This document shows positions 2,192 through 18,183 of a DNA stretch of 64,000 nucleotides, piece after piece. The position numbers were made by a program, and so were the translations under genes. Positions within the stretch are counted from its first letter, which is position 1, and the number at the start of each line of letters is the position of its first letter. Origin of the DNA: Pirellulales bacterium (lineage in GTDB: Bacteria > Planctomycetota > Planctomycetia > Pirellulales > PALSA-1355); assembly GCA_022844125.1 (NCBI GenBank), contig JALHMI010000015.1, positions 124,001 to 188,000 on the forward strand, written 5' to 3'. Under the pieces are notes generated by a model. The model did not search any database and was not told the origin of the DNA. It saw only the letters and a list, made by a program, of their open reading frames with translations.

Positions 2192-3709
2192 GTGTCGCCG
2201 CTCGATTGGATCGTGATCTTCGTCTACGCCGCGATCATGTTGATCGTGGGCTGGTATCACGCGCGCGGAAACCAAACGGCTGACGATTTTCTGCTCGGCG
2301 GGCGGAGCATTCCGGTTCTCGCCCTCGGCTTGTCACTCTTTGCCACGCTCTGCAGCACGCTGACCTATCTCGCCACACCGGGCGAGATGATTGCGCATGG
2401 CCCGATGATGATCACCCAGGTGGCGGCCCATCCCATCGTGTTCGTCATCGTCGGGTTCGGATTAATTCCACTGATCATGCGCCAGCCGGTCACCAGCGCA
2501 TACGAACTACTGGAAAAACGCCTGGGGAGGGGTATTCGCAAGGCCGGCGCAAGCGTGTTTCTTTTGCTCCGCATCGGCTGGATGGCGACGATTCTCTATG
2601 CGACCAGTTTCGTCGTGCTGGTGCCGCTGCTGGGGGTCGACCCGTCTTGGGCGCCGGTTTTTTGCGTCGTGATTGGCATCCTGACTGCGATCTACTCGTC
2701 GACCGGTGGCTTTCGTGCCGTGGTCACGACCGATGCGATTCAGGCGCTGACGATGGTGGTCGGAGCGATCGTCACGCTCGCGGTGATCAGCTATCGGCTC
2801 GGCGGCGTAGGTGGCTGGTGGCCCACGTCCTGGCCCGCGCACTGGCAAACACCAAGTTGGGGATTTGATCCCTCGGTGCGCGTTTCCTTCGGGATGCTGC
2901 TCTTGTCGACCACGCTGTGGTACGTCTGTACCAACGGCTCGGACCAGATGTCGATCCAGCGGTTTCTTTCGACCCGCGATGCCAAGGCGGCTCGCCGCAC
3001 GCTTCTGGTCGCGCAGCTCACGGACGCCACGATGGCTATCCTCTTGGCGCTCACCGGCGTCGCGATCCTGGGGTTTTACCAGGCGACGACTTCCGTCGAT
3101 CCGTCATCCATTCAGCAACAGGGCGATAAGTTCTTTCCGAAGTTCATTATGAACGAAATGCCCTCCGGACTGGCGGGGTTGGTCATCGCCGCCATCTTGG
3201 CCGCCGCGCTGAGCAGTCTGTCCTCGGGGCTGAACTCGTGTTGCGCTGTGCTCGAGCGAGACTTTTTGGCCGATCCCGCCGATGCTCGCCTGGCCCCCGA
3301 GTTGGCTGCGCACCAAAGTCTGCGACGGCTGAAGCGCCTGACCTGGCTGTTTGCCGCCTGCGCGGTTGTGCTGGGTATCATGAACACCCTGATCACCGGA
3401 AACTTGCTCGAACGCTGCTTCAAACTCGTTAACCTGCTGACTGCGCCACTGTTTGTGCTGTTCTTCCTGGCGCTGTTCATACCCTGGGCGAACGCGCTGG
3501 GGGCCTGGCTCGGGTTGATTTCGAGCATCGCCACCGCCGTGACGATCGCCTATGCGCCCGACTTCGGAATCGACCTGGGCATCAGTTTCGTGTGGATGAT
3601 GCCGTGTTCGCTGCTGGTCGGTATCATCGTCGGCGTGCTGGGGAGCGCGGCCGGTGCAAACATCACTCAGCAGAACTCCGCCCGGGAACTGGGAAAGGAA
3701 TTGCCATGA
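2192..3709 (+). CDS. Sodium:solute symporter (SSS family)
   Basis: Inner-membrane Na+-coupled transporter of the solute/sodium symporter family, 505 residues with about 13 hydrophobic segments, the usual size. The N-terminus (SPLDWIVIFVYAAIMLIVGWYH) and the following LLGGRSIPVLALGLSLFATLCS segment are typical of the family, and the Gly/Ser-rich stretch ALSSLSSGLNS lies where the family has its conserved late helix. It begins with GTG at 2192. No clear Shine-Dalgarno site is present. It is the first gene of the operon and overlaps the next by four bases (ATGA), indicating translational coupling. Family members take up sugars, sialic acid, amino acids or carboxylates, so the substrate cannot be named, but the downstream catabolic enzymes suggest it feeds them. 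Confidence 0.9.
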   Translation: MSPLDWIVIFVYAAIMLIVGWYHARGNQTADDFLLGGRSIPVLALGLSLFATLCSTLTYLATPGEMIAHGPMMITQVAAHPIVFVIVGFGLIPLIMRQPVTSAYELLEKRLGRGIRKAGASVFLLLRIGWMATILYATSFVVLVPLLGVDPSWAPVFCVVIGILTAIYSSTGGFRAVVTTDAIQALTMVVGAIVTLAVISYRLGGVGGWWPTSWPAHWQTPSWGFDPSVRVSFGMLLLSTTLWYVCTNGSDQMSIQRFLSTRDAKAARRTLLVAQLTDATMAILLALTGVAILGFYQATTSVDPSSIQQQGDKFFPKFIMNEMPSGLAGLVIAAILAAALSSLSSGLNSCCAVLERDFLADPADARLAPELAAHQSLRRLKRLTWLFAACAVVLGIMNTLITGNLLERCFKLVNLLTAPLFVLFFLALFIPWANALGAWLGLISSIATAVTIAYAPDFGIDLGISFVWMMPCSLLVGIIVGVLGSAAGANITQQNSARELGKELP

Positions 3710-4806
3710 AAGTCGCATCTCAGGACCAGCGCATCGGTCGGCCACTCGCCGAGGTCGATACGCCCGCGTTGCTACTCGACCGCGCTGCCTGCGATCGCAA
3801 TCTCGCTCGCATGGCCGAATTCTTCCGCGATCGGCCGGCCAAGCTCCGCCCGCATTTCAAGAATCACAAGTGCGTCACGCTCGCCAAACGGCAACTGGCC
3901 GCCGGCGCCATCGGCATCACGTGCGCCAAGCTCGCAGAGGCCGAAGTTCTCGCGGCTGGCGGGATCGGCGACATCCTGATTGCCAATCAGGTCGTGGGTC
4001 CACAGAAGGTTGCCCGGCTGGCCCGCCTGTCTCGCGAGGCCAAGTTGATCGTGGCCGTCGACCACATTGAACAGGTCGAGGCAATCGCGGCGGCAGCGCG
4101 GGAGTCCGGCTCGCAGGTCCACCTGCTCATCGAAGTCGACATTGGCATGGGACGCTGCGGGGTAGCGCCTGGCGAAGCCGCGTACGAACTGGCGAAGCAG
4201 ATTACCCGCATCGAGGGCGTGCGCCTGGCCGGCTTGCAGGCCTACGAAGGACACCTTGTGAACGTGCTCGATCGAGCCGAACGCGGTGAACGCGCGCGAG
4301 CAGCAATGCAACAGGCAGTCGATACCCGCACGCTGCTCGAGTCTCGCGGCATCGCGATCGAGTGCATCAGCGGTTGCTCGAGCGCCACTTACGACAGCAC
4401 CGGCACGATGCCTGGTGTCACGGAAGTGCAGGCGGGCACCTATGCCACAATGGACCGACAGTACCAGCGGCTGGCGCCTGAGTTCGAGATTGCCTTGGGA
4501 ATTCAGGTTCGCGTGATCAGTCGGCCGACCGCCGACAAGGCCGTGCTCGACATTGGCGTCAAAGGCGCCGGCTGCGAGTTTGGTGTGCCGGCCATCCGGG
4601 GTTATCCGGACGTGGAGATTCCCAGCTTCATGTCCGAGGAGCACGCCGTGGTGAAGAATTGCCCCGCTTGGCGCATTGGCGAACTGGTGGAACTGATCCC
4701 GACGCATGCCTGCACCACCTGCAACCTCCACCGGGAAATCGTCGTTCATGAGGAGGGCTTGGTCGCGGAAGTATGGCCGATCGAAGGTTCGGGAAAACTG
4801 ACCTGA
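3706..4806 (+). CDS. D-threonine aldolase / D-serine dehydratase-like PLP enzyme
   Basis: Fold-type III PLP enzyme of the alanine-racemase-N / DSD1-like family, 366 residues. PATH: D-threonine aldolase, 3-hydroxy-D-aspartate aldolase and D-serine dehydratase belong here. The N-terminus reads VDTPALLLDRAACDRN, followed by LRPHFKNHKC, where the first Lys of the family's RPH.K.HK signature would hold PLP. The C-terminal part contains HACTTCNLH, the His-x-Cys metal site of the D-threonine aldolase branch. Start: ATG at 3706, preceded by a GGGAAAGGAA ribosome site and overlapping the transporter stop. The likely reaction is cleavage or dehydration of a D-beta-hydroxy amino acid. With the downstream aminotransferase it hints that an amino compound passes through this pathway. 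Exact substrate unknown. Confidence 0.85.
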   Translation: MKVASQDQRIGRPLAEVDTPALLLDRAACDRNLARMAEFFRDRPAKLRPHFKNHKCVTLAKRQLAAGAIGITCAKLAEAEVLAAGGIGDILIANQVVGPQKVARLARLSREAKLIVAVDHIEQVEAIAAAARESGSQVHLLIEVDIGMGRCGVAPGEAAYELAKQITRIEGVRLAGLQAYEGHLVNVLDRAERGERARAAMQQAVDTRTLLESRGIAIECISGCSSATYDSTGTMPGVTEVQAGTYATMDRQYQRLAPEFEIALGIQVRVISRPTADKAVLDIGVKGAGCEFGVPAIRGYPDVEIPSFMSEEHAVVKNCPAWRIGELVELIPTHACTTCNLHREIVVHEEGLVAEVWPIEGSGKLT

Positions 4807-4838
4807 TGGACATTCACAAAATGACACGAGGTGTCACC

Positions 4839-7148
4839 ATGGATCGCGGGAATCAGTCGCTCATTGCCGGATTGCTATTATGTCTGTCAGCAATTGCGGC
4901 GCGCGCCGATGAGGCGAAACTCGTCGAGGTCCGCAAGGTCTGGGATGCGGCGCCACATAACGCCTTTACGGATCTGGTCCGCTTCCAAGGCGCCTGGTAT
5001 TGCGTGTTTCGCGAGGGGCAGGGCCATGTCTCTCCAGACGGCGCGCTGCGCGTGCTCACCTCTACTGACGGCGAAAAGTGGGACTCGGCCGCGCTGATCA
5101 CGTCGCCCGACTCCGACCTTCGTGACGCCAAGATCAGCATCACGCCCGCCGGCGAGTTGATGCTGGCCGGCGCCGGCGCACTGCATGACAAATCGCAGCA
5201 CACGCACCAATCGCTCGCATGGTTTTCGAAAGATGGCCGTAGCTGGAGTGAACCCCACAAGATCGGCGACCCGAATTTCTGGCTGTGGCGCATTGTCTGG
5301 CATCGCGACAAGGCCTATGCCGTTGGTTACGGGTGCGGTCAGGACAATCGCTCGATTCGTCTCTACAAGAGCGACGACGGCAAAAAGTTTGAAACCTTGG
5401 TCGAACGTCTCGATGTTGATGGCTATCCGAACGAGACCGCGCTGGTCTTCGATGGCGACACTTGCTACTGCCTGCTCCGTCGCGACGATCAGCCGAATAG
5501 CGGTCAGATCGGCATCTCGAAGCCGCCCTACACCAACTGGCAATGGAAAGACCTGGGCGTGCGCCTTGGCGGTCCGCAGATGCTCCGACTGGAAGACGGT
5601 CGCTATGTCGCCGCGGTCCGGCTCTATGACGGTGGATCCCGGACTTCGCTCGTCTGGGTCGATCCAGAGACCGCGAAGCTGACCGAATTCCTTAAGCTCC
5701 CTTCCGGCGGCGACAATAGCTATCCCGGACTCGTCATGCACGACGGTCTGCTCTGGGTGAGCTATTACTCTTCGCACGAGGGCAAGACGAGCATTTACCT
5801 GGCCAAGGTGAAGCTACCGGAAGTGGTGCGCGACATTGCCTCGCGGCGCGAGCTGTTTGTCGATGACCACCTGATCGCAAAACTGAAGAATGCCGAACTC
5901 CGTATGCATCAGCCGCAGCCGGCCGAAGTGTCGCTGGTATGCGACGCGCCCTGGGAAGGCAACATTTCGGCCTACTATTCGATTTTCCGCGACGACGATC
6001 GCTACCGGATGTACTATCGCGGCGCTCACTTCGACGAGCAAGCCAAGAAGTCAACACACCGTGAAGTGACTTGCTACGCCGAAAGCCGCGATGGGATTCA
6101 TTGGGACAAGCCCAGACTGGGACTGTTCGAATTCAACGGCTCGAAGGAAAACAACATCGTCTGGGATGACGAAGGCTCGCCCGATACCCACAACTTCACG
6201 GTCTTCAAGGACGCGAATCCGAATTGCCCGGCCGACGCCCGCTACAAGGCTCTTGCCGGACCTCGCAACCCCGGACTACATGCGTATCAGTCGCCCGATG
6301 GCATCCATTGGTCGCCGATGCAGTCGGAGCCGGTGCTCAGCGGTGGCGACTTCGATTCGCAGAACCTCGCGTTTTGGGATCCGACGCAGCAGCGATACCT
6401 GGCGTTCTTTCGCAAGTTCGACCGCAAGGTGCGCGACATCATGACCTGCCACTCCGATGACTTTGTCCATTGGAGCCAGCCGGAGTTTCTCGATTTTGGC
6501 GGCGCCCCGCACGAACATCTCTACACGAATGCTATCCAGCCCTACGTCCGCGCGCCGCACCTGCTGATCGGCTTTCCGACCCGTTTCCAGCCCCAGAACG
6601 AGCAGGTCGAACCAGTGCTGATGTCCAGTCGCGATGGCCGGCATTTTCGCCGCTGGCCGGAACCTTTGATTCCGATCACCGCGCCCCAGGATCGCGACGG
6701 CAACCGCGCGAACTACATGACCTGGGGACTGCTGGAACTGCCCGATCGCGACGGTGAGCTCTCGGTCTATGCGACCGAAGCCTACTACGCCGGCCCCGGC
6801 AGCCGCGTCCGCAGGTTCACGTTCCGCTCCGATGGCTTTGTATCCGCCCACGCAGGCGACAAGGGAAGCGAACTGGAAACGCATCCGCTCACGTTCACGG
6901 GCGACAAATTGCACCTCAACTACGTCGCCGCGCCAGGTGGCAGCATGCGAGTTGAAATCCAGGACGCGGAAGGCAAGCCGCTTACGGGCTTCACGCTCGA
7001 AGATTGTATACCGCTGTCGGGCGACAGCGTCGATGAAGCGGTGCGATGGAAGTCGGGGGCTAATGTGGCGAGTTTCGCCGGCCAGCCTGTCCGGCTGAAG
7101 TTCGCCATTCGTAACGCGGACATTTACGCCCTGCAGTTTGTCGAGTGA
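4839..7148 (+). CDS. Secreted two-module protein: sialidase-like propeller plus GH32/43-like propeller
   Basis: Exported protein of 769 residues with two beta-propeller-like modules. A signal peptide (MDRGNQSLIAGLLLCLSAIAARA) precedes a sialidase/BNR-type module, about residues 25-325, with repeats such as STDGEKWDS, SKDGRSWSE and SDDGKKFET. A second module begins at about 330 with RRELFVDDHLIAKLKNAELR and runs to about 690. This start is characteristic of planctomycete proteins resembling five-bladed glycosidases of the GH32/43/68 type. A small beta domain ends the protein. Start choice: the ATG at 4839 follows ACGAGG at good spacing and gives a clean signal peptide. A TGATG overlap start at 4806 is the alternative. 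It probably binds or cleaves a glycan outside the cytoplasm to supply the pathway substrate. No catalytic residues can be assigned with confidence. Confidence 0.75.
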   Translation: MDRGNQSLIAGLLLCLSAIAARADEAKLVEVRKVWDAAPHNAFTDLVRFQGAWYCVFREGQGHVSPDGALRVLTSTDGEKWDSAALITSPDSDLRDAKISITPAGELMLAGAGALHDKSQHTHQSLAWFSKDGRSWSEPHKIGDPNFWLWRIVWHRDKAYAVGYGCGQDNRSIRLYKSDDGKKFETLVERLDVDGYPNETALVFDGDTCYCLLRRDDQPNSGQIGISKPPYTNWQWKDLGVRLGGPQMLRLEDGRYVAAVRLYDGGSRTSLVWVDPETAKLTEFLKLPSGGDNSYPGLVMHDGLLWVSYYSSHEGKTSIYLAKVKLPEVVRDIASRRELFVDDHLIAKLKNAELRMHQPQPAEVSLVCDAPWEGNISAYYSIFRDDDRYRMYYRGAHFDEQAKKSTHREVTCYAESRDGIHWDKPRLGLFEFNGSKENNIVWDDEGSPDTHNFTVFKDANPNCPADARYKALAGPRNPGLHAYQSPDGIHWSPMQSEPVLSGGDFDSQNLAFWDPTQQRYLAFFRKFDRKVRDIMTCHSDDFVHWSQPEFLDFGGAPHEHLYTNAIQPYVRAPHLLIGFPTRFQPQNEQVEPVLMSSRDGRHFRRWPEPLIPITAPQDRDGNRANYMTWGLLELPDRDGELSVYATEAYYAGPGSRVRRFTFRSDGFVSAHAGDKGSELETHPLTFTGDKLHLNYVAAPGGSMRVEIQDAEGKPLTGFTLEDCIPLSGDSVDEAVRWKSGANVASFAGQPVRLKFAIRNADIYALQFVE

Positions 7149-7179
7149 CCGTTCGTAAGGCAACGCAAAGGGCCGCAGC

Positions 7180-7932
7180 ATGAGACGTGATGACCTCCGC
7201 GAGACGCTCGAGCGCGACGGATTCGTGGTGATTCCGGGACTGTTGCCGGACGCGGAACTGAGCCAGCTCCAAGAGAATCTCGAACGCTACGCGCGCGAAG
7301 TGGTGCCGACGTTGCCCGATGCTGACGCTTTTTTCGAAGACAAGACGCGACCCGAGACGCTCGAACAGTTACAGCGGATGGGCTGCGATGCCTACTTCGA
7401 GGGTTATCGCAGTCATCCTCGCTGGGTGCAGGCAGCCGAAACGATTCTGGGAGAGGCCGCGTTGGCAGAGCAGCCGGAGTGGTTCAACAAGCCGCCCGGC
7501 ACGCGGCACGTTACGCCGCCACATCAGGACAACTACTACTTTTGCCTGAAGCCACCTCAGGTGATCACGATCTGGCTGGCGCTCGATGAAGTCGACGCCG
7601 AGAACGGCTGTCTGCGGTATGTGGCAGGCTCGCACCGCGAAGGTTATCGACCGCACGCACGCTCGCAGATTCTGGGATTCTCGCAAGGGATCAGCGATTA
7701 CGGTCCGAGCGACTTCGTACGCGAGGTGGCCGTTCCGCTCAAACCTGGCGACGCCGTGGCCCATCATGGGATGACGATCCACCGAGCGGACGCCAACATG
7801 TCGGCGGTGCGTCATCGGCGCTCGTTCGCGATGGTGTTTCGTGGCGTCTCGTGCACGCGCGATGAAGAGGCTTTCGAGCGTTACTTGCAATCGGCTCGAT
7901 CGCAGCATCAGTCGCTGGGGCTGAACGTCTAG
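7180..7932 (+). CDS. Phytanoyl-CoA dioxygenase (PhyH) family protein
   Basis: Non-haem Fe(II)/2-oxoglutarate-dependent oxygenase, 250 residues, cytoplasmic. The facial triad is visible: H115-x-D117 in HQDNYYF and a distal His in GMTIHRADANMS (H201), with a nearby Arg for 2-oxoglutarate. The N-terminus (GFVVIPGLLPDAELSQLQENLERYAREV) is the usual PhyH start. Bacterial members hydroxylate small organic molecules rather than phytanoyl-CoA and often sit in catabolic or biosynthetic operons with Gfo/Idh/MocA dehydrogenases, as here. It lies 31 bases after the propeller gene in the same operon. It may oxidise the imported compound to a form that can be dehydrogenated or deaminated by neighbours. Confidence 0.87.
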   Translation: MRRDDLRETLERDGFVVIPGLLPDAELSQLQENLERYAREVVPTLPDADAFFEDKTRPETLEQLQRMGCDAYFEGYRSHPRWVQAAETILGEAALAEQPEWFNKPPGTRHVTPPHQDNYYFCLKPPQVITIWLALDEVDAENGCLRYVAGSHREGYRPHARSQILGFSQGISDYGPSDFVREVAVPLKPGDAVAHHGMTIHRADANMSAVRHRRSFAMVFRGVSCTRDEEAFERYLQSARSQHQSLGLNV

Positions 7933-7962
7933 GGAGAGCACGCGGCGAGGTGCTTCACGTCC

Positions 7963-8991
7963 ATGTCGATTCAGAAACCGCATCACGTCCTCGTCGTCGG
8001 CGCCGGCTCGATCGGTGAGCGGCATTTGCGCTGCTTTCTCGGAACAGGCCGCACCGATTGTTCGTTCGTCGAAGTGAATGCCGATCTTCGCGCCCGGATT
8101 GTGGACCGATATCACACGACCGGTTTCGCGGAGCTCCAGTGCGCGCTCGATAGCGTGGGCAAAGGCGGGACTCCAGTCACGGCGGCAGTCGTCGCCACTC
8201 CAGCCCATCTGCACGTGCAACAGGCCACACAGCTCGTCGAGGCTGGGCTTCACGTGCTGATTGAGAAACCACTGAGCACGAAGCGCGAGGGGCTTGACGA
8301 CTTGCTCGGTGAGTCGCGCGAACGCAGTGCCGTTGCCGCGGTGGCTTACGTCTTCAGGGCTTACCCAGCGCTGGCCGCAATGCGCGCAGCGATTCAGAGC
8401 GGTCGCTTTGGTCGGCCAGTGCAGCTCGTTGCCACCTGCGGTCAGAACTTCCCGACGTATCGGCCCGCGTACCGCGAGACGTACTACACCGACCGGGCGA
8501 AAGGCGGCGGCGCGATTCAGGATGCCCTGACCCACGTCCTCAATGCCGGCGAGTGGCTCGTCGGTCCCATCGATCGGCTGGCGGTCGACGCCGCGCACCA
8601 GGTGCTCCCCGGCGTCGACGTTGAAGACACAGTGCACCTCCTCGCCAGGCATGCTGGCGTGCTGGCCAGCTACAGCCTCAACCAGCACCAACCGGCAAAC
8701 GAGATCACGCTTACCGTCAACTGCGAGCGCGGGATCGCGCGTTGGGAGCCACACCAACGGCGCTGGCGGTGGATGATCGTGCCGGACGAGCCTTGGCACG
8801 ATGAACCGCACGAACCGCTCGAGCGCGACACGCCGTTCCTGCGGCAAGCGCACAGCTTTCTCGATGCGATCGAGGGAAAGTCCGCGCCGCTTTGCACGCT
8901 CGCCGAAGGAGCCCAGACGCTGAACGTCAACCTGGCCGCGCTCGCGAGCCTTGACGCAGGCAGTTGGCAAACGGTGGAGGGCAGGGGATGA
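7963..8991 (+). CDS. Gfo/Idh/MocA family oxidoreductase
   Basis: NAD(P)-dependent dehydrogenase, 342 residues. The Rossmann half starts with VLVVGAGSIGERHLRCF, and the family's EKP motif appears as VLIEKPLST near residue 92, whose Lys is catalytic in relatives. The C-terminal half shows the expected alpha/beta domain with GGGAIQDALTHVLNAGEWLVG, in which Asp and His match the family's substrate-binding positions. Members oxidise or reduce sugars, inositols and sugar acids. It is followed by an SDR gene overlapping by four bases, so the two redox enzymes are probably made in a fixed ratio and act on consecutive steps. Substrate not predictable. Confidence 0.9.
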   Translation: MSIQKPHHVLVVGAGSIGERHLRCFLGTGRTDCSFVEVNADLRARIVDRYHTTGFAELQCALDSVGKGGTPVTAAVVATPAHLHVQQATQLVEAGLHVLIEKPLSTKREGLDDLLGESRERSAVAAVAYVFRAYPALAAMRAAIQSGRFGRPVQLVATCGQNFPTYRPAYRETYYTDRAKGGGAIQDALTHVLNAGEWLVGPIDRLAVDAAHQVLPGVDVEDTVHLLARHAGVLASYSLNQHQPANEITLTVNCERGIARWEPHQRRWRWMIVPDEPWHDEPHEPLERDTPFLRQAHSFLDAIEGKSAPLCTLAEGAQTLNVNLAALASLDAGSWQTVEGRG

Positions 8992-9803
8992 GCGACCGCA
9001 CAACTCCACGGGAGGAGCCGACGATTCAGCAGCTCTTCGACCTCACCGGCCGAGTCGCGCTGGTTACCGGCGGCGCGGGACACCTGGGCACCGCCATGTG
9101 CCGCGCGCTCGCCGAAGCCGGCGCCACGGTCGTGGTCACCAGTCGAGACGCCGAGCGTGCGCAAAGCGTTGCAACGAAGCTGCCACGGCCAGGCGAAGGG
9201 AACCATCAGGGCAGCGCTCTCGACCACTGCAATCCCGAGGATGTTCGCCGTTGTCTCGCGGAGACGATCGCAAAGACTGGCCGGATCGACATTCTCGTCA
9301 ACAACGCTCACGAGCCGGTCGCGCATGACCTGACGAGTATCACCGCGGAGGGGTTCAGCCGCCAGCTTCAGAATGCGACCGGTTACTTCGAGCTCGCGCG
9401 GTTCGTTCATCAATATGCCGTCGAACGGAAAGCGCCGGCGAGCATCGTGCTACTCGCTTCGATGTACGGGCTGGTGGGTTCTTATCCGGACGCTTACGAG
9501 GGCATCAGTCCCGCCAACTCGGTTGCCTATCAAACCTTGAAGGGCGGGATCATTCAGATGGCTCGGCACTTGGCCGTGTACTGGGCGGCCGATCGCGTGC
9601 GGGTGAACTGTTTGAGCCCGGGGCCGTTTCCCGGCGCTGCAGCTCCGGCGGCACTCGTGGAACGGCTGTGCACCAAGTCGCCACTCGGCCGGATGGGCAC
9701 GCCGGCGGAGCTGAAGGGCGCGATCGTGTTTCTTGCCTCCGACGCGAGCAACTACATGACGGGTCAGAACCTGGTGATCGATGGCGGTTGGACAGCCTGG
9801 TAG
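8988..9803 (+). CDS. Short-chain dehydrogenase/reductase (SDR)
   Basis: Classical SDR oxidoreductase, 271 residues from the ATG at 8988, which overlaps the previous stop (ATGA). The cofactor motif is TGGAGHLG near residue 25, the NNAH segment occupies the NNAG position, and the catalytic set is Ser in LLASMYG with Tyr and Lys in YQTLKGG. The C-terminus shows the usual GQNLVIDGGW. The long segment GSYPDAYEGISPANSVAYQ between Ser and Tyr is longer than the common spacing but seen in gluconate-dehydrogenase-like SDRs. It probably oxidises a polyol or sugar acid within this operon. Substrate unknown. Confidence 0.9.
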   Translation: MSDRTTPREEPTIQQLFDLTGRVALVTGGAGHLGTAMCRALAEAGATVVVTSRDAERAQSVATKLPRPGEGNHQGSALDHCNPEDVRRCLAETIAKTGRIDILVNNAHEPVAHDLTSITAEGFSRQLQNATGYFELARFVHQYAVERKAPASIVLLASMYGLVGSYPDAYEGISPANSVAYQTLKGGIIQMARHLAVYWAADRVRVNCLSPGPFPGAAAPAALVERLCTKSPLGRMGTPAELKGAIVFLASDASNYMTGQNLVIDGGWTAW

Positions 9804-9818
9804 AGAATTGGCGTACCC

Positions 9819-11171
9819 ATGAAAAGTCATCAACCAGTGGCGAGTTCGCGAGTTCCCAAATCGCTGGAGTTGTTCGAACGCGCGCTCAGACTGATTCCCG
9901 GCGGAACCCAACTGGTGAGCCGGCGTCCCAGCCGCTCCTCATATGGAGTTTCGCCCATCTATGCCGAACGTGCCAATGGCGCACGCTTCTGGGATGTTGA
10001 CGGACACGAGTACATCGACTGGATGAGCGGCATCGGCTCAGTACTGCTTGGCTACTGCGATCCCGTGGTCGACGATGCGGTGCGCGAACAGATCTCACTT
10101 GGCACGATCTATTCGATCAACCACGAGCTCGAAATCGAGCTGGCGGAAGCGCTGTGCCGCCACATCCCTTGCGCGGAGATGGTGCGCTATGCCAAGTGTG
10201 GCGGCGAGGCCTGCGCGATCGCCGTTCGCATCGCGCGCGGTGTCACCGGCCGAGATCGGGTTCTGTTCTGTGGCTATCACGGCTGGCATGACTGGTACCT
10301 GGCTGCCAACCTGGCCGAATCGTCAGGGCTCGATGCGCATTTGCTTCCCGACATCGAGCCGATCGGCGTACCGCGCGGACTTGCCGGCACGGCCGTACCG
10401 TTTGCGTACGGTGATGCGGCGGCCCTCGGCGAACAGTTGGGCCAGCACCGCGGGCAGATCGCCGCCATCATCATGGAACCACTCCGCTCGGAACTGCCAC
10501 CAGACGGATACCTTGCCGCCGTGCGCCAGCTCGCAACCAAGCACGGAGCCGTGCTGATCTTCGACGAAGTGTCTGCCGGTCTGCGGTTCGGCATGGGCGG
10601 CGCGCAGGGTGCACTAGGCGTCACGCCCGACATGGCCGTCTTCGCCAAGTCGATTTCGAACGGTTATCCCATGGCAGCGGTTGTCGGCCGACGCGAAGTA
10701 ATGGAGCCGGCAGCACAGATGTTCATTTCCAGCACCTATTGGAGCGACACGATCGGGCTTCGAGCAGCGCTGACCACCTTGCGAGAAGTTGAGCGGCGCG
10801 GCGTGCCTCATCAACTGGAGGTTTTCGGCGCGAAGCTGAAAGCTCGCTTGAATGCGATCGCCAGCGAGGTCGGTCTGCCGGCCGTCTGTTGCGGCGTGGA
10901 TGTGCACCCGCATCTCGAATTCGAGCTGGATAACCCACAGCTTGTGCCGGCCGTCAAAACGCTGTACATCCAGGAGATGGCCAAGCGCGGCTGCCATGGC
11001 AACACGGCCTTCTACCTGAACGCGGCTCAAGGTGACGCCGAGCTCGAACAAACGGCCGCTGCCGTGCGCGAAGTCTTTGCGATCATTCGTGATGGTCTCG
11101 CGGCGGACAACGTTTCACAGCTCCTCGAGTGCGCGCCGCAGCACGACGCCTTCCGCCGCCTCGTTCGCTAG
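9819..11171 (+). CDS. Class III aminotransferase, glutamate-1-semialdehyde aminomutase-like
   Basis: PLP-dependent fold-type I enzyme, 450 residues. Early segments (LIPGGTQLVSRRP, YIDWMSGIGSVLLGY) resemble HemL-type proteins. The cofactor region shows KCGGEACAIAVRIARG, YHGWHDWY, IFDEVSAGLRFG with the pyridine-binding Asp, and VFAKSISNGYPMAAVVG with the Schiff-base Lys at residue 277. It is unlikely to be the housekeeping hemL, because it lies in a catabolic operon and replaces several HemL-typical stretches. It could transaminate or isomerise an amino-substituted intermediate, which with the D-threonine-aldolase-type enzyme suggests a nitrogen-containing substrate. It starts 15 bases after the SDR stop. 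Confidence 0.87.
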   Translation: MKSHQPVASSRVPKSLELFERALRLIPGGTQLVSRRPSRSSYGVSPIYAERANGARFWDVDGHEYIDWMSGIGSVLLGYCDPVVDDAVREQISLGTIYSINHELEIELAEALCRHIPCAEMVRYAKCGGEACAIAVRIARGVTGRDRVLFCGYHGWHDWYLAANLAESSGLDAHLLPDIEPIGVPRGLAGTAVPFAYGDAAALGEQLGQHRGQIAAIIMEPLRSELPPDGYLAAVRQLATKHGAVLIFDEVSAGLRFGMGGAQGALGVTPDMAVFAKSISNGYPMAAVVGRREVMEPAAQMFISSTYWSDTIGLRAALTTLREVERRGVPHQLEVFGAKLKARLNAIASEVGLPAVCCGVDVHPHLEFELDNPQLVPAVKTLYIQEMAKRGCHGNTAFYLNAAQGDAELEQTAAAVREVFAIIRDGLAADNVSQLLECAPQHDAFRRLVR

Positions 11172-11181
11172 AGAGCTCCTC

Positions 11182-12360
11182 ATGCAACCCGACTCCTCGC
11201 CCGACGCGACGCCGCTCGAAGTCGTTTCTCGAGGGCAGATCTTCGATGCGGCGCGCGAGTCGCCGATTCATCGCATTGCATGCTTCACGTCGCTCTGCCG
11301 TCTCGCCTCGGGCAGGATTCTTTGCGGGTTTCAGAATGGACCAACGAAGCAGGCCGCGACCGGCACCGTAAGACTTGCCGAGTCCTCGGACGGCGGCCAC
11401 TCCTGGAACCCGATTCTTTTCGAATTCGTCACGACGTTCGACGGCACGCCTGGTTCGCTGGCCGCAATCGAACTGGTTGAGCCTGAACCCGGCAGGCTGC
11501 TGGCGTTCGCCACCTGGTTCGATCGCAGCGAACCTGAGCGGCCGCTCTTCGATCCGGAGACCGAGGGTATCTTGCGATCGAAGCAGCTGTGGGCCGAGTC
11601 GCGCGATGAGGGTCGCACCTGGACCGCCTGGCAGGCGCTGGATCTTGGCGAGCTGCGCGGCACAGCGCTTACCGGTCCTGTCCTATGCTGGCACGACGGC
11701 ACGATCGGCTTCGCGCTCGAAAGCTTCAAAGAGTTCGACGATCCCGCCCCGGGGAGGCATGCGGCGTGGCTGCTTGTCTCACGCGACGGCGGTCGGAGCT
11801 TTCAGTCGCCGGCGCTTGTAGCGCAGCATCCCGAGGGGCGGGTCTACTACTGGGATCAGCGGTTGTGCGTCGGTCGCCGCCCGGGCGAACTCACGGCCAT
11901 GTTTTGGACTCATGACCTGGCGGACCGTCGCGATCTCACGGTGCACCTGCGGCACGCCACGCTCGCCGGCACTAAACTCCGGGTGAGTCCAATCATCGAG
12001 ACCAACATTCCCGGGCAGATTGCCGCACCGCTCTGGCTGGGCGATGGGCGATTGCTCGCGTTCCTGGTCGATCGCGGCGATCCGGCGACGCTGACTCTCT
12101 GGTGCTCCACCGATCGCGGCGCCACTTGGCCGCAGACGCAGCGCCTGGTCATCTACCGCCACGACGAGCGAGCAGCACTATCGCAAGGCGCGGATAACAT
12201 CGACTTCAAGCAATACTGGGAAGACATGGGCCGCTGGAGCTTCGGACATCCCGCGATCTGCCAGCTTGACGACTCGCACGTTCTGCTTGCCTGGTACGCC
12301 GGCACTCCCAGTTGCATGAGCGTCCACTGGGCGCGCGTCCGCGTTGGCACGGCGAGGTAA
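11182..12360 (+). CDS. Sialidase-like (BNR/Asp-box) propeller protein
   Basis: Six-bladed sialidase-type propeller, 392 residues, with no signal peptide, hence apparently cytoplasmic. Four Asp-boxes are visible: SSDGGHSW, SRDEGRTW, SRDGGRSF and STDRGATW. The start at 11182 is ten bases after the aminotransferase stop, with GAGAG upstream. A longer in-frame reading from 11032 would lie inside the aminotransferase and is rejected. Exo-alpha-sialidase annotation is usual for this fold, but many planctomycete members lack proven activity and may act on other uronates or as binding proteins. It is the second propeller of the operon, the first being exported, which suggests extracellular and intracellular processing of related material. 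Confidence 0.8.
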   Translation: MQPDSSPDATPLEVVSRGQIFDAARESPIHRIACFTSLCRLASGRILCGFQNGPTKQAATGTVRLAESSDGGHSWNPILFEFVTTFDGTPGSLAAIELVEPEPGRLLAFATWFDRSEPERPLFDPETEGILRSKQLWAESRDEGRTWTAWQALDLGELRGTALTGPVLCWHDGTIGFALESFKEFDDPAPGRHAAWLLVSRDGGRSFQSPALVAQHPEGRVYYWDQRLCVGRRPGELTAMFWTHDLADRRDLTVHLRHATLAGTKLRVSPIIETNIPGQIAAPLWLGDGRLLAFLVDRGDPATLTLWCSTDRGATWPQTQRLVIYRHDERAALSQGADNIDFKQYWEDMGRWSFGHPAICQLDDSHVLLAWYAGTPSCMSVHWARVRVGTAR

Positions 12361-12363
12361 GCC

Positions 12364-13359
12364 ATGAGCGATTGGACGTTCACCGAGCAGGACCGCGAAC
12401 TCTTTGCTCGCGATCTGGATAGCTTCGTGCCTCCGGAGATCTTCGATGCCCATGGTCATTGGTATCGGGCAAGAGACTTCGCTCCAGGCACGGCGCCGGG
12501 GCTGGTTCAAATGGGTCCTCCCATAGCCGGCTCAGCGGCCTTCGACGTATCGATGGCGGACTTGCTGCCCGGCCGATCGATCGAAGGCCTGTTCTTTCCG
12601 TTCCCGCACGCCGAGTTGAGCGTCACCGAAGCCAATCAGTTTCTTTGCGATGAACTTCGCTCCCGACCTGGATCTCGCGGACAACTGCTCGTCACGCCCA
12701 ACGACGATCCCGAGCAGATTCGCGAGGTCGTCCGCCGGGAGCGGCTCGTAGGTCTGAAGTGCTATCACGTGTACGCGCCGCAGAAGCCAACGTTCGACGC
12801 CCCCATTGAGGCCTATCTGCCGGAACCGCAGGTGTGCATGGCTCATGAAGAGGGGCTTTCGATCACGCTGCACATGGTTCGCGCCCGCGCGCTCGCCGAC
12901 CCGGCCAATCAGGCCACCATTCGCCGCTATGCGGAGCGCTATCCCAATGCCCGGCTGATCCTCGCGCATGCGGCCCGCGGCTTCAATCCGCATCACACGA
13001 TGGCGGGCATTCACTCGCTGCGCGGACTGGCGAACATCTGGTTCGATACCTCCGCGGTGACCGACTCGGGCGCCATCGAGGCGATCATCCGCACGCTCGG
13101 TCACGAACGCGTGCTCTATGGCGCAGACTTTCCGGTCTCTCAGATGCGAGGCCGTTGCGTGGCCGTCGGCGATGGATTCATCTGGCTCAGCGACGAGAAC
13201 ACCCGGCTTGCGGCGGCCTACGGCAAGCTCGAATTCGCGCTGGTGGGACACGAAGCGCTCCGCACGCTTAAAGTGGCTGCGATGTCGCTGGGCTTGGGCG
13301 ACGTGCAAGTAGAAGACATCTTCCTCCACAACGCGCGCCGCCTGTACAGCCTGCGTTAG
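12364..13359 (+). CDS. Amidohydrolase family (TIM-barrel) protein
   Basis: Metal-dependent hydrolase or decarboxylase of the amidohydrolase-2 type, 331 residues. The first-strand motif appears as FDAHGHWY, a His in LILAHAARGFNPHHTM, and the late Asp in VLYGADFPVSQMRG, matching the H-x-H / H / D pattern. Relatives include lactonases, uronate or aromatic decarboxylases and deacetylases. It starts three bases after the preceding stop and is the last gene of the operon, ending ten bases before the convergent esterase gene. A terminal hydrolysis or decarboxylation step is likely but the substrate is not known. Confidence 0.85.
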   Translation: MSDWTFTEQDRELFARDLDSFVPPEIFDAHGHWYRARDFAPGTAPGLVQMGPPIAGSAAFDVSMADLLPGRSIEGLFFPFPHAELSVTEANQFLCDELRSRPGSRGQLLVTPNDDPEQIREVVRRERLVGLKCYHVYAPQKPTFDAPIEAYLPEPQVCMAHEEGLSITLHMVRARALADPANQATIRRYAERYPNARLILAHAARGFNPHHTMAGIHSLRGLANIWFDTSAVTDSGAIEAIIRTLGHERVLYGADFPVSQMRGRCVAVGDGFIWLSDENTRLAAAYGKLEFALVGHEALRTLKVAAMSLGLGDVQVEDIFLHNARRLYSLR

Positions 13360-13369
13360 TCCTGGGCGG

Positions 13370-14887
13370 TTACGGCGTGCGCTTGTGTTTCAGGAGCCAG
13401 TCCACCGCATCCGGTAGCGCGATCCCCACGGCCAGCGTATGGCCGAAGCCGGGCATCTCGCGCACTTCGACGGACATGCCCGTCGAGGCGGCCCGTTCGG
13501 CCGAAGTCCGCACACGCGCCGGCGGCACGACGCCGTCCAGCTCGGGAATCACGACCAGCACGGGCGGCGTGCCTGAAGTCGGAGACAGGGACCCACCGGC
13601 GATACAGCAGGCCGCGGCGATCGTATCCGCGTGGCCGCGCGCGAGAGAAGCGGTCGCACCTGCGCCCATCGAGTGCCCCAACACATACACTCGATCGCGA
13701 TCGATCTGGTAGTCGGCGGCCAGATCCTCGACCAGCGATTGGAGCGTTCGGATGTCACTGCCGAACGTGTACGTCAGCGGCGAGACCACAAGTACGCCCT
13801 TTTTTTCCGCGATCTGCTTGATGATTCCCGCGCCATAAGCCTCGAAGAACATATTTTCGTCGCCGCCCATGCCATGCAGCACGACCAGCAGCGGCAACGG
13901 TTCGTCCGCCTGGGCTGCCTGAGGAGCGAAGACGCGCAGCGGCACTTCGCGCTTCCCGCTGACAAATACTCGCCAGTTATCGCCCGGCTTGTTGGCATAA
14001 GGATTCTTACCGGCCGCGAGCGCGGCGATTTCGGCAGTCACATCCTCCGACAATTGGTGCAAGTCCGCCATGAACTGCGCGGAATTCACGACCGATGGTG
14101 TGTCGGTCAACAGTTGGTTACGTGCGCGGCAACTCGCGAGGGCTTTCTCGATTGCCGGTGAGTCGGCTTTGATCTTGGCAAGTTGTTCGGCGTTCGCCTC
14201 ACGCAAGGCATCCAGCGATGAAGAGACGACGTTGACGTGCCCCGCGATGACTCCCGGCTTCCCTGCCAGACCAAGCTCGATCTGGTAGCGGCCGGGCCGA
14301 GGTTTGGAGCTTGCCTCCGGAACGGCCAGTCTGACATCGACGTTCGCCTTGGGACCCAGGCCCACCGTAGAGGGGATCGCCGCGAGAACGGTGCCATCGG
14401 TTCCAAGCAAACGAACCTCGCAACCGACATCGTCCAGCGAGTCCGATTCCCAATCGTAGATTGACTGAACGCGCAGCGCGCGAGCGTCCTTCGCGTCGAG
14501 ACGCCAGACCGCAGGCTCAGGCGTAACCTTCAATGAGCTGATCGCCCGCTGTGCGGCGCGGCGCTCCTCCTTTTCGATCGATTCGGTCAGCGCATCAATC
14601 GCGCGAATCGCTTCCGCGTTGCGTCCCATGAAGAACGCCATCGTCGCCTGATCGAAACCGCGATTGATCGTGGAAACCTTCTCTCCTGCCGGCGGGTTGG
14701 CGAAATACGCCTGCTCGAGCCGCAGATACGCCGCGGCCAGGTCCGCCCGTGTGACCCGCGCTTGATCGACCGCCGGATGAGTCGCAGGCGAAGTAGCCGC
14801 GGGCGTTTCGTCCGCATTCGCAGGGAAATTGGCGAAGCCGGCCAGTACCGACAACAGAGCGATGCCACAACACGAATTCCGCCACAT
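13370..14887 (-). CDS. Secreted alpha/beta hydrolase (PHB-depolymerase-like esterase)
   Basis: Exported esterase-type protein, 505 residues. A signal peptide (MWRNSCCGIALLSVLAGF..., NADE) leads into an Ala-rich helical region of about 270 residues with no recognised fold, followed by an alpha/beta hydrolase domain from about 310. The nucleophile elbow is GHSMGAGA near residue 405, the acid is probably the Asp in PELDGVVPP near 447, and the His is in PGFGHTLAVG near 482. LLVVLHGMGGDENMFFEAYG supplies the oxyanion region. This matches feruloyl-esterase/polyhydroxybutyrate-depolymerase-like proteins. The long N-terminal region is unusual and may be a binding or scaffold domain. It shares the strand of the lipid cluster but has its own 86-base upstream gap, so co-transcription is uncertain. 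Confidence 0.8.
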   Translation of the reverse strand: MWRNSCCGIALLSVLAGFANFPANADETPAATSPATHPAVDQARVTRADLAAAYLRLEQAYFANPPAGEKVSTINRGFDQATMAFFMGRNAEAIRAIDALTESIEKEERRAAQRAISSLKVTPEPAVWRLDAKDARALRVQSIYDWESDSLDDVGCEVRLLGTDGTVLAAIPSTVGLGPKANVDVRLAVPEASSKPRPGRYQIELGLAGKPGVIAGHVNVVSSSLDALREANAEQLAKIKADSPAIEKALASCRARNQLLTDTPSVVNSAQFMADLHQLSEDVTAEIAALAAGKNPYANKPGDNWRVFVSGKREVPLRVFAPQAAQADEPLPLLVVLHGMGGDENMFFEAYGAGIIKQIAEKKGVLVVSPLTYTFGSDIRTLQSLVEDLAADYQIDRDRVYVLGHSMGAGATASLARGHADTIAAACCIAGGSLSPTSGTPPVLVVIPELDGVVPPARVRTSAERAASTGMSVEVREMPGFGHTLAVGIALPDAVDWLLKHKRTP

Positions 14888-14973: not shown

Positions 14974-15768
14974 TCAGTGACCTCTCACTCCTCGCGGTGG
15001 GCCGGGCACGAACGCGTTGGTTCTCGCCTGATAGGCCGCGTACTCTGGCCGCCGCTCGGTAATCGTCTTCTCCAGTAGCGAAACGCCGGACACCTTCAGT
15101 AGCAGGACCGTCATGGCCAGCGGGCTGAGAATCGTCCACCAGGCGCCGCCGGCAGTGGCGATCAGGTATAACCCCCACCACACGCAGGCGTCTCCAAAAT
15201 AGTTCGGATGCCGCGTATAGCGCCACAGCCCCCGGTCCATCACCCGGCCGCGATTGGACGGATCGCGCTTGAACTCAGCGAGTTGCCAGTCGCCCACAGA
15301 CTCGAAGACGAAGCCCACGACGAACAGCGTCACGCCAAGCGCATCGAGCCAGCCGAGCGGCTGCATCTCCCGATCAACGACTGCCACCTGAATTGGCAAA
15401 GACACGAACCACAGGATTGCCGCCTGCAGCCAGAACACGGTAAACAGACTCAGCCACCAGAATCGTTGGCCCTGGTGTGCTCGCATCGCCTGGTAGCGGC
15501 GGTCTTCGCCGTGCCCCCAATTTCGCCGGAGGAGGTACACCGAAAGCCGCAGTCCCCACACCGCCGTCAGCAGGCCAAGCAGCAGCCCACGGTTCGTCAC
15601 TGGCTGATTCAGTGCGAGTGCCACCGCCGCCACGATTGCAAACCCCGTCCCCCAGAACGGGTCGACGATGCTCGCGTCGCGCAGACGAACGCTCAGCGCC
15701 CAGAGCGCGGCAAGCACGCCGAGCACCACGACCAGCGTCGACAACAGCGTGATAGCAAGCGGCGACAT
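14974..15768 (-). CDS. DUF1295 membrane protein (steroid 5-alpha-reductase-like)
   Basis: Integral membrane protein, 264 residues, about six helices, of the DUF1295 family related to 3-oxo-5-alpha-steroid 4-dehydrogenases. The C-terminal hallmark is visible: GLWRYTRHPNYFGDACVWWGLYL, then EKTITERRPEYAAYQARTNAFVPGPP. It is the last gene of the cluster with two CFA-type methyltransferases, DUF1365 and an FAD amine oxidase. It follows the second methyltransferase by nine bases. In other bacteria this neighbourhood is linked to light or singlet-oxygen responses and to modified membrane fatty acids, so it may reduce a lipid intermediate. That role is inference. Confidence 0.88.
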   Translation of the reverse strand: MSPLAITLLSTLVVVLGVLAALWALSVRLRDASIVDPFWGTGFAIVAAVALALNQPVTNRGLLLGLLTAVWGLRLSVYLLRRNWGHGEDRRYQAMRAHQGQRFWWLSLFTVFWLQAAILWFVSLPIQVAVVDREMQPLGWLDALGVTLFVVGFVFESVGDWQLAEFKRDPSNRGRVMDRGLWRYTRHPNYFGDACVWWGLYLIATAGGAWWTILSPLAMTVLLLKVSGVSLLEKTITERRPEYAAYQARTNAFVPGPPRGVRGH

Positions 15769-15777
15769 GGCGAGGTC

Positions 15778-16839
15778 CTACCTTCCTCGTGGCGCATTGG
15801 GCGCGAGCAAACTATGTGTCACGAACCACTCCTGGCCGTCTCGATAGCCAAATAGCTCGGCCACCGCCAGAAAGAACATCCGCCAGCGCTGAAACCAGCG
15901 CCGCGCATCGTGGCCATAGACGCTGCGTAAGACTTCCATAGCAGTATCACGATTTGCATCGAGATTTGCCAGCCAGGCTTCGGACGTACGCTGGTAGTGA
16001 TCGCCGCTCCAGGTCCACTGCCGCTCAACATGCATATGGCGGTTGAACCGCGTGAACAAGTCGGAGCGCGGCATGATCCCACCGGTAAAGAAGTTGCGCG
16101 CCATCCAGTCTGCCTGGCCGCCGGATTCGAACGGATAGGCGAATTCACGATGGCAGAACACATGCGCCAGCAACCTGCCGTCGGGCTTGAGCCAACCAGC
16201 GATCCTTTCAAACAGGGCTTCATAGTTTCGTAAGTGCTCGAACATTTCCACGGATACAACGCGGTCGTAGCTTCCCGGCTTCGGCGGAGCATAGCTGTTG
16301 ATGTCGGCTGTCACGACTTGCAAGTTCGTCAGGCCCCGGCCGGCAGCCTGCCCTTCAATAAACCGCCGCTGGGAGTGCGAGTTCGACATCGAGGTGATTC
16401 GGCTCGCGGGATGTTGCTCGGCCATCCACAGCGAGAGCGACCCCCAGCCGCAGCCCAGCTCCAGCACTTCCTGACCGTCCGCAAGCTCGGCATGCTCGCA
16501 GGTCTGCTTGAGCGCGGCCACTTCCGCCTCAGCCAGCGTAGTCGTCGCGTTGGGCCAATAGCAGCAACTGTACTTTCGCCGCGGCCCCAGCACCGTGGCG
16601 AAGAATTCTGCCGGCACCTCGTAGTGCTGCTCGTTCGCCGCCTCGGTCTCGAGCGCAATCGGACCTCTCGCCAGCGACTCGAGAAACGCCATCTGGCCTC
16701 CGCTGGCGGCCTGGATGCGGGCCGCCTTGAGACGCGACTGGCACAAGCGGCGGATTGCCAGACGCGTCACCATGTCAGGCACAAATCGGCGTTCAACCGC
16801 CTCGATTCCCAAGCCTGTCGCAAACTCGAGCGTGTTCAT
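15778..16839 (-). CDS. CFA-like SAM-dependent methyltransferase (second paralogue)
   Basis: Class I SAM methyltransferase of the cyclopropane-fatty-acid synthase superfamily, 353 residues from the ATG at 16839. SAM motif I is VLELGCGWGSLSLWMAE, followed by MSNSHSQRRFIEGQ and VVSVEMFEHLRNYEALFERI. It is more divergent from true CFA synthases than the adjacent gene and fits a group that always accompanies it in FAD-oxidase/DUF1365/CFA clusters. A start at 16941 is open but would overlap the upstream gene by 89 bases, so 16839, 14 bases from that gene's end, is preferred. It may methylate an unsaturated acyl chain, possibly in branched or furan fatty acid synthesis. Confidence 0.85.
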   Translation of the reverse strand: MNTLEFATGLGIEAVERRFVPDMVTRLAIRRLCQSRLKAARIQAASGGQMAFLESLARGPIALETEAANEQHYEVPAEFFATVLGPRRKYSCCYWPNATTTLAEAEVAALKQTCEHAELADGQEVLELGCGWGSLSLWMAEQHPASRITSMSNSHSQRRFIEGQAAGRGLTNLQVVTADINSYAPPKPGSYDRVVSVEMFEHLRNYEALFERIAGWLKPDGRLLAHVFCHREFAYPFESGGQADWMARNFFTGGIMPRSDLFTRFNRHMHVERQWTWSGDHYQRTSEAWLANLDANRDTAMEVLRSVYGHDARRWFQRWRMFFLAVAELFGYRDGQEWFVTHSLLAPNAPRGR

Positions 16840-16852
16840 GGTCGTCCGCGGC

Positions 16853-18181
16853 TCATGCCGTCCCGTAATGTGGTTGCGAGATGCCTGCGGCAGCCTTGCG
16901 ATCCAGCGTTGCGCTTGCACTGCGCGTGAGCAAAAGTGCATCTCGCCGACAGGCGGAATTGTCGAACACCAGTTGCACGACGCTCACCTGCCGTTCCTCG
17001 AAGCCAGCCTCACAATAACATAAATAATAACGCCACAACCGGATCAGTCGCTCGGTGTAACCGAGTGTGCGAATCTCCGGCAAACGAGCTTCGAAGTTCG
17101 CACACCAGCGTCGCAACGTTTCCGCATAATGCGGGGCGAAATCCTCAAGCTGCACGCAGCGCAAGCGGCTCGCGCGACCGGCCGATTCGAGCAGCGCGGC
17201 TGCCGAGGGGAGCGACCCGCCCGGGAACACGTGCTTGCGTATGAAGTCAACCGATGCGAGATACTTGTCGTAGTCGCGCTCCGGCATCACGATGCCTTGC
17301 AGGACCATCGACCCGGAGGGCTTGAGAAGTTCGCCGCACTTGCGAAAGAACGCGTCCAAAAACTGTGGCCCCACGGCTTCGATCATCTCGATCGACACGA
17401 GCTTGTCGAACTGCCCGGTGAGATCCCGATAGTCGCAATTCAGCACCGTGATCTGATCGGTAAGTCCTGCTGCCTTAACACGCTGGCAGGCGAGTTCGTG
17501 CTGCTCGCGAGAGATCGTCGTGGTGGTCACGTGGCAGCCATAGTGCCGGGCCGCGTGCAGTGCGAGTCCGCCCCAGCCGGTGCCGATTTCCAGAACGCGA
17601 TCGCCCGGACGCAGGTCGAGCTTACGGCACACGCGGTCGAACTTCTCAAGGGAAGCTTCACGCAACGATGCGCTCCACTGCGGAAAGACACCGCTCGAAT
17701 AAGCAAGCGTGTCGTCCAGCCAAAGCTGGAAGAAGTCATTCCCCAAATCGTAGTGCGCGCCGATGTTGCGGCGGCTGCCGCGGCGCGTGTTCGATCGCCG
17801 CCAATGGCCCAAACGGGCTCCCGCCTGCATCAGCCAGCACCAACCGCGGTCGAGCCGGCTGGCGGCGTGGCGATTGCGTACGAAGAGACGCATCAGCCCC
17901 ATCAGATCGTCGCATTGCCACTCGCCCGCGATGTAGGACTCGGCTGCCCCCAGGCTGCCGCCGAACGCTACTCGTCGGTAGAACCGCTGGTCGTCCACGC
18001 GAACCGAGATCGGCGCCCCGCCTGCTCCGAGCATCTGGATGCCAGCCGGGTCGAACAGTCGCACGCTTCCGCCGCGAAGTGCCGCGAGCTTGCTCAGCAC
18101 GAGCGCACGTACCGACCGGTTCCAGGGCCCAAACGCAATTTGGGAGAGTCGCTTTTGCTCGGAAGCCGCATTCATTTTCAT
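16853..18181 (-). CDS. cfa: Cyclopropane-fatty-acyl-phospholipid synthase
   Basis: Transfers a methylene or methyl group from SAM to the double bond of acyl chains in membrane phospholipids; peripheral membrane enzyme. From the ATG at 18181 it has 442 residues. The N-terminal substrate domain carries FGGSLGAAESYIAGEW. The catalytic part shows AHYDLGNDFFQLWLDDTLAYSSG, the SAM motif VLEIGTGWGGLALHAARHYG, TTISREQHELACQRV and the family's VSIEMIEAVG. A TTG start at 18199 is possible but lies inside a palindrome, so the ATG is chosen. It sits between DUF1365 and the second methyltransferase in one operon. Confidence 0.92.
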   Translation of the reverse strand: MKMNAASEQKRLSQIAFGPWNRSVRALVLSKLAALRGGSVRLFDPAGIQMLGAGGAPISVRVDDQRFYRRVAFGGSLGAAESYIAGEWQCDDLMGLMRLFVRNRHAASRLDRGWCWLMQAGARLGHWRRSNTRRGSRRNIGAHYDLGNDFFQLWLDDTLAYSSGVFPQWSASLREASLEKFDRVCRKLDLRPGDRVLEIGTGWGGLALHAARHYGCHVTTTTISREQHELACQRVKAAGLTDQITVLNCDYRDLTGQFDKLVSIEMIEAVGPQFLDAFFRKCGELLKPSGSMVLQGIVMPERDYDKYLASVDFIRKHVFPGGSLPSAAALLESAGRASRLRCVQLEDFAPHYAETLRRWCANFEARLPEIRTLGYTERLIRLWRYYLCYCEAGFEERQVSVVQLVFDNSACRRDALLLTRSASATLDRKAAAGISQPHYGTA

Positions 18182-18183
18182 GG

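Follow-up and report, generated by a model that had tools for sequence, protein, structure and literature searches.

A recurrent planctomycete gene module that may import an amino-sugar acid and degrade it oxidatively without phosphorylation

Which compound is handled by an operon that joins two pyridoxal-phosphate-dependent (PLP) enzymes, an Fe(II) oxygenase and two propeller proteins? Such an operon lies in a 64,000-nucleotide stretch from a Pirellulales bacterium (contig JALHMI010000015.1, positions 124,001 to 188,000; hereafter the window), where nine co-directional genes at 2192–13359 on the plus strand face a gene for a GntR/FCD regulator (open reading frame (ORF) prediction with Pfam and NCBIfam scans). 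In order, they encode a sodium:solute symporter (SSS), a D-threonine-aldolase-like protein (DTA), a double propeller (PROP2), a PhyH-family dioxygenase, a Gfo/Idh/MocA dehydrogenase (GFO), a short-chain dehydrogenase (SDR), a class III aminotransferase (AT), a cytoplasmic propeller (SIA) and an Amidohydro_2 enzyme (AMH). All ten ORFs carry the families assigned to them in a preliminary description of the sequence, which had noted that the nine genes abut or overlap. That description had also proposed breakdown of an amino-substituted glycan or a modified sugar acid; the evidence favors the import and degradation of a sugar or sugar acid with an amino substituent, and the breakdown of a polymeric glycan finds no support. 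At somewhat short of an even chance, the operon serves to take up an amino sugar or amino-sugar acid and to degrade it by an oxidative route without phosphorylation.

The DTA-like protein (3706–4806, +) is a fold-III PLP enzyme with Ala_racemase_N and D-ser_dehydrat domains. It resembles D-threonine aldolase and BhcC (4v15, 6qkb) in fold and overall sequence, and by sequence is nearest to these enzymes (1.6e-71 to 1.2e-60, vs. 2e-29 for D-serine dehydratase), but it differs from them at the active site: in alignment it has an H-x-C metal motif where the aldolases have H-x-D (ligands His347 and Asp349), and an Asn at the position, counted by hand, of the base His193 of AxDTA. In the aldolase, His347 and Asp349 are metal ligands, while zinc D-serine dehydratase and 3LLX have the His-Cys pair and lack His193 (PMC4401734). 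The DTA-like protein thus shares with the zinc-type D-serine dehydratases both the His and Cys ligands and the missing His193 base, although its overall sequence is closer to the aldolases; the DTA relative in locus L142 has the same H-x-C and Asn features. Because of these two features, ammonia elimination rather than retro-aldol cleavage is predicted, and the enzyme resembles an ammonia-lyase of the D-serine dehydratase type, which would convert a 2-amino-3-hydroxy acid to a 2-keto-3-deoxy acid. D-threonine aldolase activity, implied by the earlier name of the protein, was rejected on the replacement of the metal-site Asp by Cys and of His193 by Asn, both positions tested being dehydratase-type; identity with BhcC (3-hydroxyaspartate aldolase) was rejected on the active-site residues and on a score of 271 bits against a cut-off of 690.

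The other PLP enzyme, the AT (9819–11171, +), finds its closest solved structures in glutamate-1-semialdehyde aminomutase (HemL; E 3e-59) and has the conserved K277, but it falls well below the curated HemL cut-offs (TIGR00713, 238 vs. 527; PRK00062, 263 vs. 398) and forms a separate, operon-linked clade in the tree, so that an identity as HemL was rejected. A candidate for the genome's HemL is a second, 40% match to the AT on contig C2. The AMH (12364–13359, +; PF04909; AF2 pLDDT 94.5) has the invariant residues H30, H32, K132, H170, H202 and D255 and is lactonase-like or decarboxylase-like; Foldseek comparison was ambiguous between lactonase, decarboxylase and hydratase, with all TM scores at about 0.5–0.6. 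In a planctomycete class that we label Gimesia-like, AMH and AT are fused in one ORF of ~790–850 residues (L045–L052, L160–L164 and other loci), which in L160–L164 stands beside GntR and HpcH genes; the fused protein lies on a different AT branch from that of the operon.

The association of these genes extends far beyond the window. A search with the AT of 392 planctomycete genomes gave strong matches in 55; scanning the representative genomes of GTDB yielded 80 named AT loci. Among the 391 other planctomycetes, AMH occurs together with AT in 22 of 22 genomes (Fisher p 1.5e-21; within the class alone 1.3e-7), PhyH in 15 of 15 (1.9e-14; 5.4e-5) and an HpcH aldolase in 14 of 17 (9e-11; 0.02), p-values that ignore shared ancestry inside the class, with kinship partly controlled by the within-class repeat. 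The check suggested in the preliminary description, conserved co-occurrence in other planctomycetes, thus ties AMH, PhyH and HpcH each to the AT; the gene grouping is well beyond chance, and together with the AMH-AT fusions this co-occurrence ties the enzymes to one another. Within 7 kb of the AT, the 26 loci with AT identity of at least 58% hold AMH in 9, PhyH in 11, SDR in 7 and GFO in 6, and the 35 loci at 50–58% identity hold AMH in 16, SIA in 13, HpcH in 15 and DUF455 in 13.

The partner sets are found again in Pirellulales, Gimesia-like planctomycetes and Chloroflexi, so the neighborhood is not unique to this strain; uniqueness is what the preliminary description had named as counting against its reading. 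The sister operon L057 (metagenome-assembled genome RI_361) retains seven of the nine genes and the regulator in one unit (GntR 73%, SSS 63%, PROP2 61%, GFO 53%, PhyH 60%, SDR 67%, AT 70%, AMH 65%). Locus L142 holds DTA (67%), PROP2 (67%), HpcH (75%), an AKR, PhyH (61%) and SDR (58%), and in Blastopirellula marina (L054) PROP2 is split over two separate genes, which accompany PhyH, SSS, AT and AMH. The Chloroflexi unit reads SIA-HpcH-ADH-AT-AMH-DUF455-AKR-AKR-GFO, with small variations (L084, L094, L099, L106, L114). Repeated neighbors of the AT in Chloroflexi and in further relatives are aldolases of the HpcH or DHDPS type, a DAO oxidase and enzymes of the enolase type. At Chloroflexi loci L084, L087, L094, L096, L099, L106 and L114, a 400-residue DUF455 protein (PF04305), whose N-terminal half has no family assignment, is encoded where planctomycetes have PhyH, and perhaps replaces it as the oxygenase of the module. 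A larger relative operon (L173:11960–18791, with L144) encodes HpcH, GFO, SDR, a DTA-like protein (H-x-C), DHDPS, Amidohydro_2, a 3-hydroxyacyl-CoA-dehydrogenase-like protein and an M19 dipeptidase. More distant AT relatives have other company: below 50% identity, 10 of 19 loci have a cytidylyltransferase neighbor, against none of 61 with AT identity of at least 50%. The loci with this neighbor include L108, L110, L119, L122, L123, L125, L128–L131 and L133, several of them with PseB/PseC/PseG/NeuB-like genes as judged by eye, and these distant relatives possibly perform a modification step in nonulosonic-acid biosynthesis.

The aldolase of the module is found outside the operon in this genome. 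An HpcH/HpaI-family gene is located inside sister operons, including L057, which has no DTA-like match; the studied operon has no aldolase of this family. The contig that carries the operon also encodes a 70% identical ortholog, 10.5 kb upstream (C15:114908–115720). The nine genes, earlier presented as the full unit, are therefore not self-contained with respect to this conserved partner. Both HpcH and DTA-like genes are present in L142. The best profiles for HpcH are GarL and HpaI, with scores below both cut-offs. GarL and HpaI are enzymes that cleave 2-keto-3-deoxy or related acids. The HpcH gene of this genome adjoins a HEAT-repeat gene, and HEAT-repeat proteins repeatedly adjoin HpcH or its operon (L165:2421–2915, L057:8273–9181, L144:3715–4632), with an N-terminus that is signal-peptide-like in L057 and L144 and not obviously so in L165.

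The catalytic residues of the remaining enzymes are intact. The PhyH-family Fe(II)/2-oxoglutarate dioxygenase (7180–7932, +; PF05721, 7.7e-37) has the metal triad HxD...H (H115, D117, H195/H196), of which HQD and the distal His are kept across 29 sequences. Among the solved structures closest to it is EvdO2, whose name marks it as an orthosomycin-sugar oxygenase. The GFO (7963–8991, +), assigned by profile match, has conserved EKP and D187/H191, and the SDR (8988–9803, +), which is gluconate 5-dehydrogenase-like (PRK08213, 206 bits against a cut-off of 279), has conserved Y181xxxK185. The SSS symporter (2192–3709, +) is of the sugar type (PF00474, 9e-31; TIGR00813; nearest subfamily PRK10484).

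Of the two propeller proteins, PROP2 (~4839–7148, +) has a sialidase-like N-terminal half, a GH32/GH130-like C-terminal half and an N-terminus that reads as a signal peptide. SIA (~11182–12360, +) is a confident sialidase-type propeller (AF2 pLDDT 87; Foldseek to GH33 at E about 1e-12 to 1e-13) that shares its fold and Asp boxes with GH33 sialidases but has no visible signal peptide. When SIA is aligned by hidden Markov model to 1EUR, whose residue roles we take to be the standard ones, the first column of the arginine triad holds Cys in the operon protein and Thr in most relatives, and the acid/base Asp column holds Gln in the operon protein; the other two triad arginines could not be placed with certainty. 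Identity as a canonical sialidase was rejected on the two missing residues. The earlier designation as a cytoplasmic sialidase-like propeller thus holds for the fold, and ordinary sialidase activity is unlikely. Other polar residues are conserved family-wide, which argues that SIA works in some way as an enzyme or as a binding protein.

From the gene order, the intact catalytic residues, the dehydratase-type PLP site, the AMH-AT fusions and the co-occurrence and co-localization of the genes, we infer a route in all its reactions, their order and its substrate. PROP2, with its signal-peptide-like N-terminus, would trim the substrate before uptake, and the SSS symporter would import a small nitrogen-bearing sugar or sugar acid for degradation in the cytoplasm. 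GFO would oxidize the sugar, as would PhyH where the sugar carries a modification, and AMH would open the resulting lactone or remove a substituent. Elimination of ammonia from a 2-amino-3-hydroxy acid by the DTA-like enzyme would then produce a 2-keto-3-deoxy acid. The AT may act on an amino group that sits at another position or on a cleavage product, the SDR would adjust a hydroxyl or keto group, and the GarL/HpaI-like aldolase encoded upstream would cleave the 2-keto-3-deoxy acid to yield pyruvate plus an aldehyde. Import, oxidation, opening of the ring, loss of ammonia and aldol cleavage without phosphorylation would make one coherent route for an amino-sugar acid.

No paper on this gene set was found in a literature search, whose coverage left out most subscription journals. 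The earlier statement that no described pathway matches stands for the whole operon, while the chemistry resembles known routes. The closest is the Ong pathway for oxidized chitin in Pseudoalteromonas, in which 2-amino-2-deoxygluconate is converted to 2-keto-3-deoxygluconate and ammonia by OngC; this fold-III PLP enzyme is a distant relative of the D-serine dehydratase and D-threonine aldolase families, and its cluster also encodes an SSS importer (PMC9537276). Alike in the two systems are the SSS importer for an amino-sugar acid (here a PF00474 match, at family level only), an amidohydrolase-type enzyme and the proposed 2-keto-3-deoxy acid intermediate; the DTA-like protein, a predicted fold-III PLP deaminase, resembles OngC at superfamily level and has a dehydratase-type metal site. 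However, OngB is a D-aminoacylase-type deacetylase, whereas the operon amidohydrolase belongs to PF04909; PhyH, GFO, SDR, the AT and the propellers go beyond the Ong pathway, and the aldolase is of the GarL/HpaI type, which acts on unphosphorylated acids. Among the ten genes, no GH20 hexosaminidase, KdgK, RidA or MurR/RpiR regulator was found. The operon would therefore be analogous to the Ong pathway rather than a member of it. Non-phosphorylative pathways for L-fucose, L-rhamnose and pentoses likewise appear to combine a dehydrogenase, a lactonase-type enzyme, an SDR acting on a 2-keto-3-deoxy acid and an aldolase (e.g., PMC6336799, PMC11199699); compared with these pathways, the operon adds two PLP enzymes and the PhyH oxygenase and has no sugar-acid dehydratase gene.

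Several points weigh against this route. Only a minority of the related loci carry a DTA-like gene (L042, L101, L116, L142, L144/L173), so ammonia elimination may not be a core step, and three more distant DTA-like relatives carry a Y-G-D motif instead. The proposed route has no necessary place for the AT and no fixed role for PhyH, the Amidohydro_2 fold, as modeled, would fit a lactonase, a decarboxylase or a hydratase alike, and the HpcH gene is outside the operon itself. Given the distribution of the DTA-like gene, a better description of the module's core is AT, AMH and an aldolase together with an oxygenase, either PhyH or perhaps DUF455 in its place.

Two sialidase-like propellers, an SSS importer and a regulator nearest NanR would also suit the catabolism of a nonulosonic (sialic-acid-like) acid, which the propellers would release or handle, SSS import and an aldolase cleave, with the AT taking off a second amino group of the kind that pseudaminic and legionaminic acids carry; the DHDPS-family aldolases of some Chloroflexi relatives and the cytidylyltransferase and PseB/PseC/NeuB-like genes beside distant AT relatives point the same way. 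This is nevertheless unlikely: the operon genes, to which the search was confined, include no NanA/NanK/NanE/NagA-type gene, the first Arg of the triad and the acid/base Asp are missing from SIA, and the CMP-sugar association belongs to the AT branch below 50% identity. Another conceivable substrate is a sugar acid with an O- or N-modification and no ring amino group: PhyH would remove the modification (e.g., by oxidative demethylation), with the two PLP enzymes processing amino-acid by-products or recycling an aldehyde product. The tie of PhyH to the AT in 15 of 15 genomes, EvdO2 among its closest solved relatives and the similar place of DUF455 in Chloroflexi agree with such a substrate, but the AMH-AT fusions put the AT in the core of the module, not at its edge, and the DTA-like gene is second in the operon; we consider this improbable.

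The nearness of the DTA-like protein to D-threonine aldolases and BhcC in overall sequence would suit a true retro-aldolase, cleaving a D-beta-hydroxy amino acid to glycine and an aldehyde in an operon that degrades such an amino acid or a conjugate of it, but the exchanged metal ligand and base in both the operon protein and that of L142, and the low BhcC score, make this quite improbable. Phosphonate use of the 2-aminoethylphosphonate type, with hydroxylation by PhyH and elimination by the class III PLP enzyme as by PhnY with PbfA, was suggested by weak matches, of PhyH to methylphosphonate hydroxylase (5e-10) and of the regulator to phosphonate regulators. These matches are far under the cut-offs, no phosphonatase, HD-domain PhnZ or phn gene is present in or next to the operon, and the propellers and the aldolase would be left unexplained; the pathway was rejected on the absence of its partner genes and is very improbable.

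The arrangement of the operon agrees with its treatment as a unit. The intergenic gaps, derived from the gene coordinates, are −4, 32, 31, 30, −4, 15, 10 and 3 bp in gene order, with a 4-base overlap between the SSS stop and the start of the DTA-like gene (starts at 3706, ~4839, 8988 and ~11182 for DTA, PROP2, SDR and SIA are taken from the reading frames). The next gene, alpha/beta hydrolase-like (13370–14887), is convergent and ends the unit, so that a single transcript across the nine genes is plausible. The divergent GntR/FCD regulator (1357–2067, −; Pfam FCD 2.7e-20, GntR 1.2e-10) has NanR as its best NCBIfam match, far below the cut-off (69 vs. 260 bits); its 73% ortholog heads sister operon L057, and relatives at 52–60% adjoin HpcH or AMH-AT loci. 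In the 124-base gap between this gene and SSS, promoter-like sites for both directions overlap on an inverted repeat, TTGAC-N9-GTCAA (2102–2120), whose arms double as divergent −35-like hexamers. Promoter-like sites in this region occur at chance level (2 found vs. 1.9 expected), and the repeat was not found in the sister intergenic regions, with no motif common to L057 or L160–L164, so 2102–2130 is a weak candidate for an operator/promoter. Elsewhere in the window, a DUF1295 gene beside two cyclopropane-fatty-acid-synthase-like (CMAS) genes (14974–18199, −) forms a separate lipid-modification cluster. Outside it, about 15–25 kb upstream of the operon, the contig carries a glycogen/trehalose-type cluster (L168 1551–12049; alpha-amylase-superfamily ORFs, named by eye).

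It is tentatively possible that the module represents a previously undescribed, widespread pathway for an amino sugar or a diamino sugar acid that proceeds without phosphorylation, through an AMH-AT pair (sometimes fused), a PhyH/DUF455 oxygenase, a dehydratase-type PLP enzyme, a GarL-like aldolase and a SIA of new function, in Planctomycetes, Chloroflexi and, in part, Latescibacterota and Poribacteria. The labels "D-threonine aldolase" and "sialidase" in such operons can mislead at the level of the active site, and the AMH-AT fusion offers a single-protein handle toward the substrate. If the reading as amino-sugar-acid breakdown is true, it would provide a second oxidative route for amino-sugar acids besides the Ong pathway of chitin, and would give a function to generically annotated PhyH, Amidohydro_2, GSAM-like (glutamate-1-semialdehyde aminomutase-like) aminotransferase and sialidase-like propeller proteins in planctomycetes, Chloroflexi and related bacteria.

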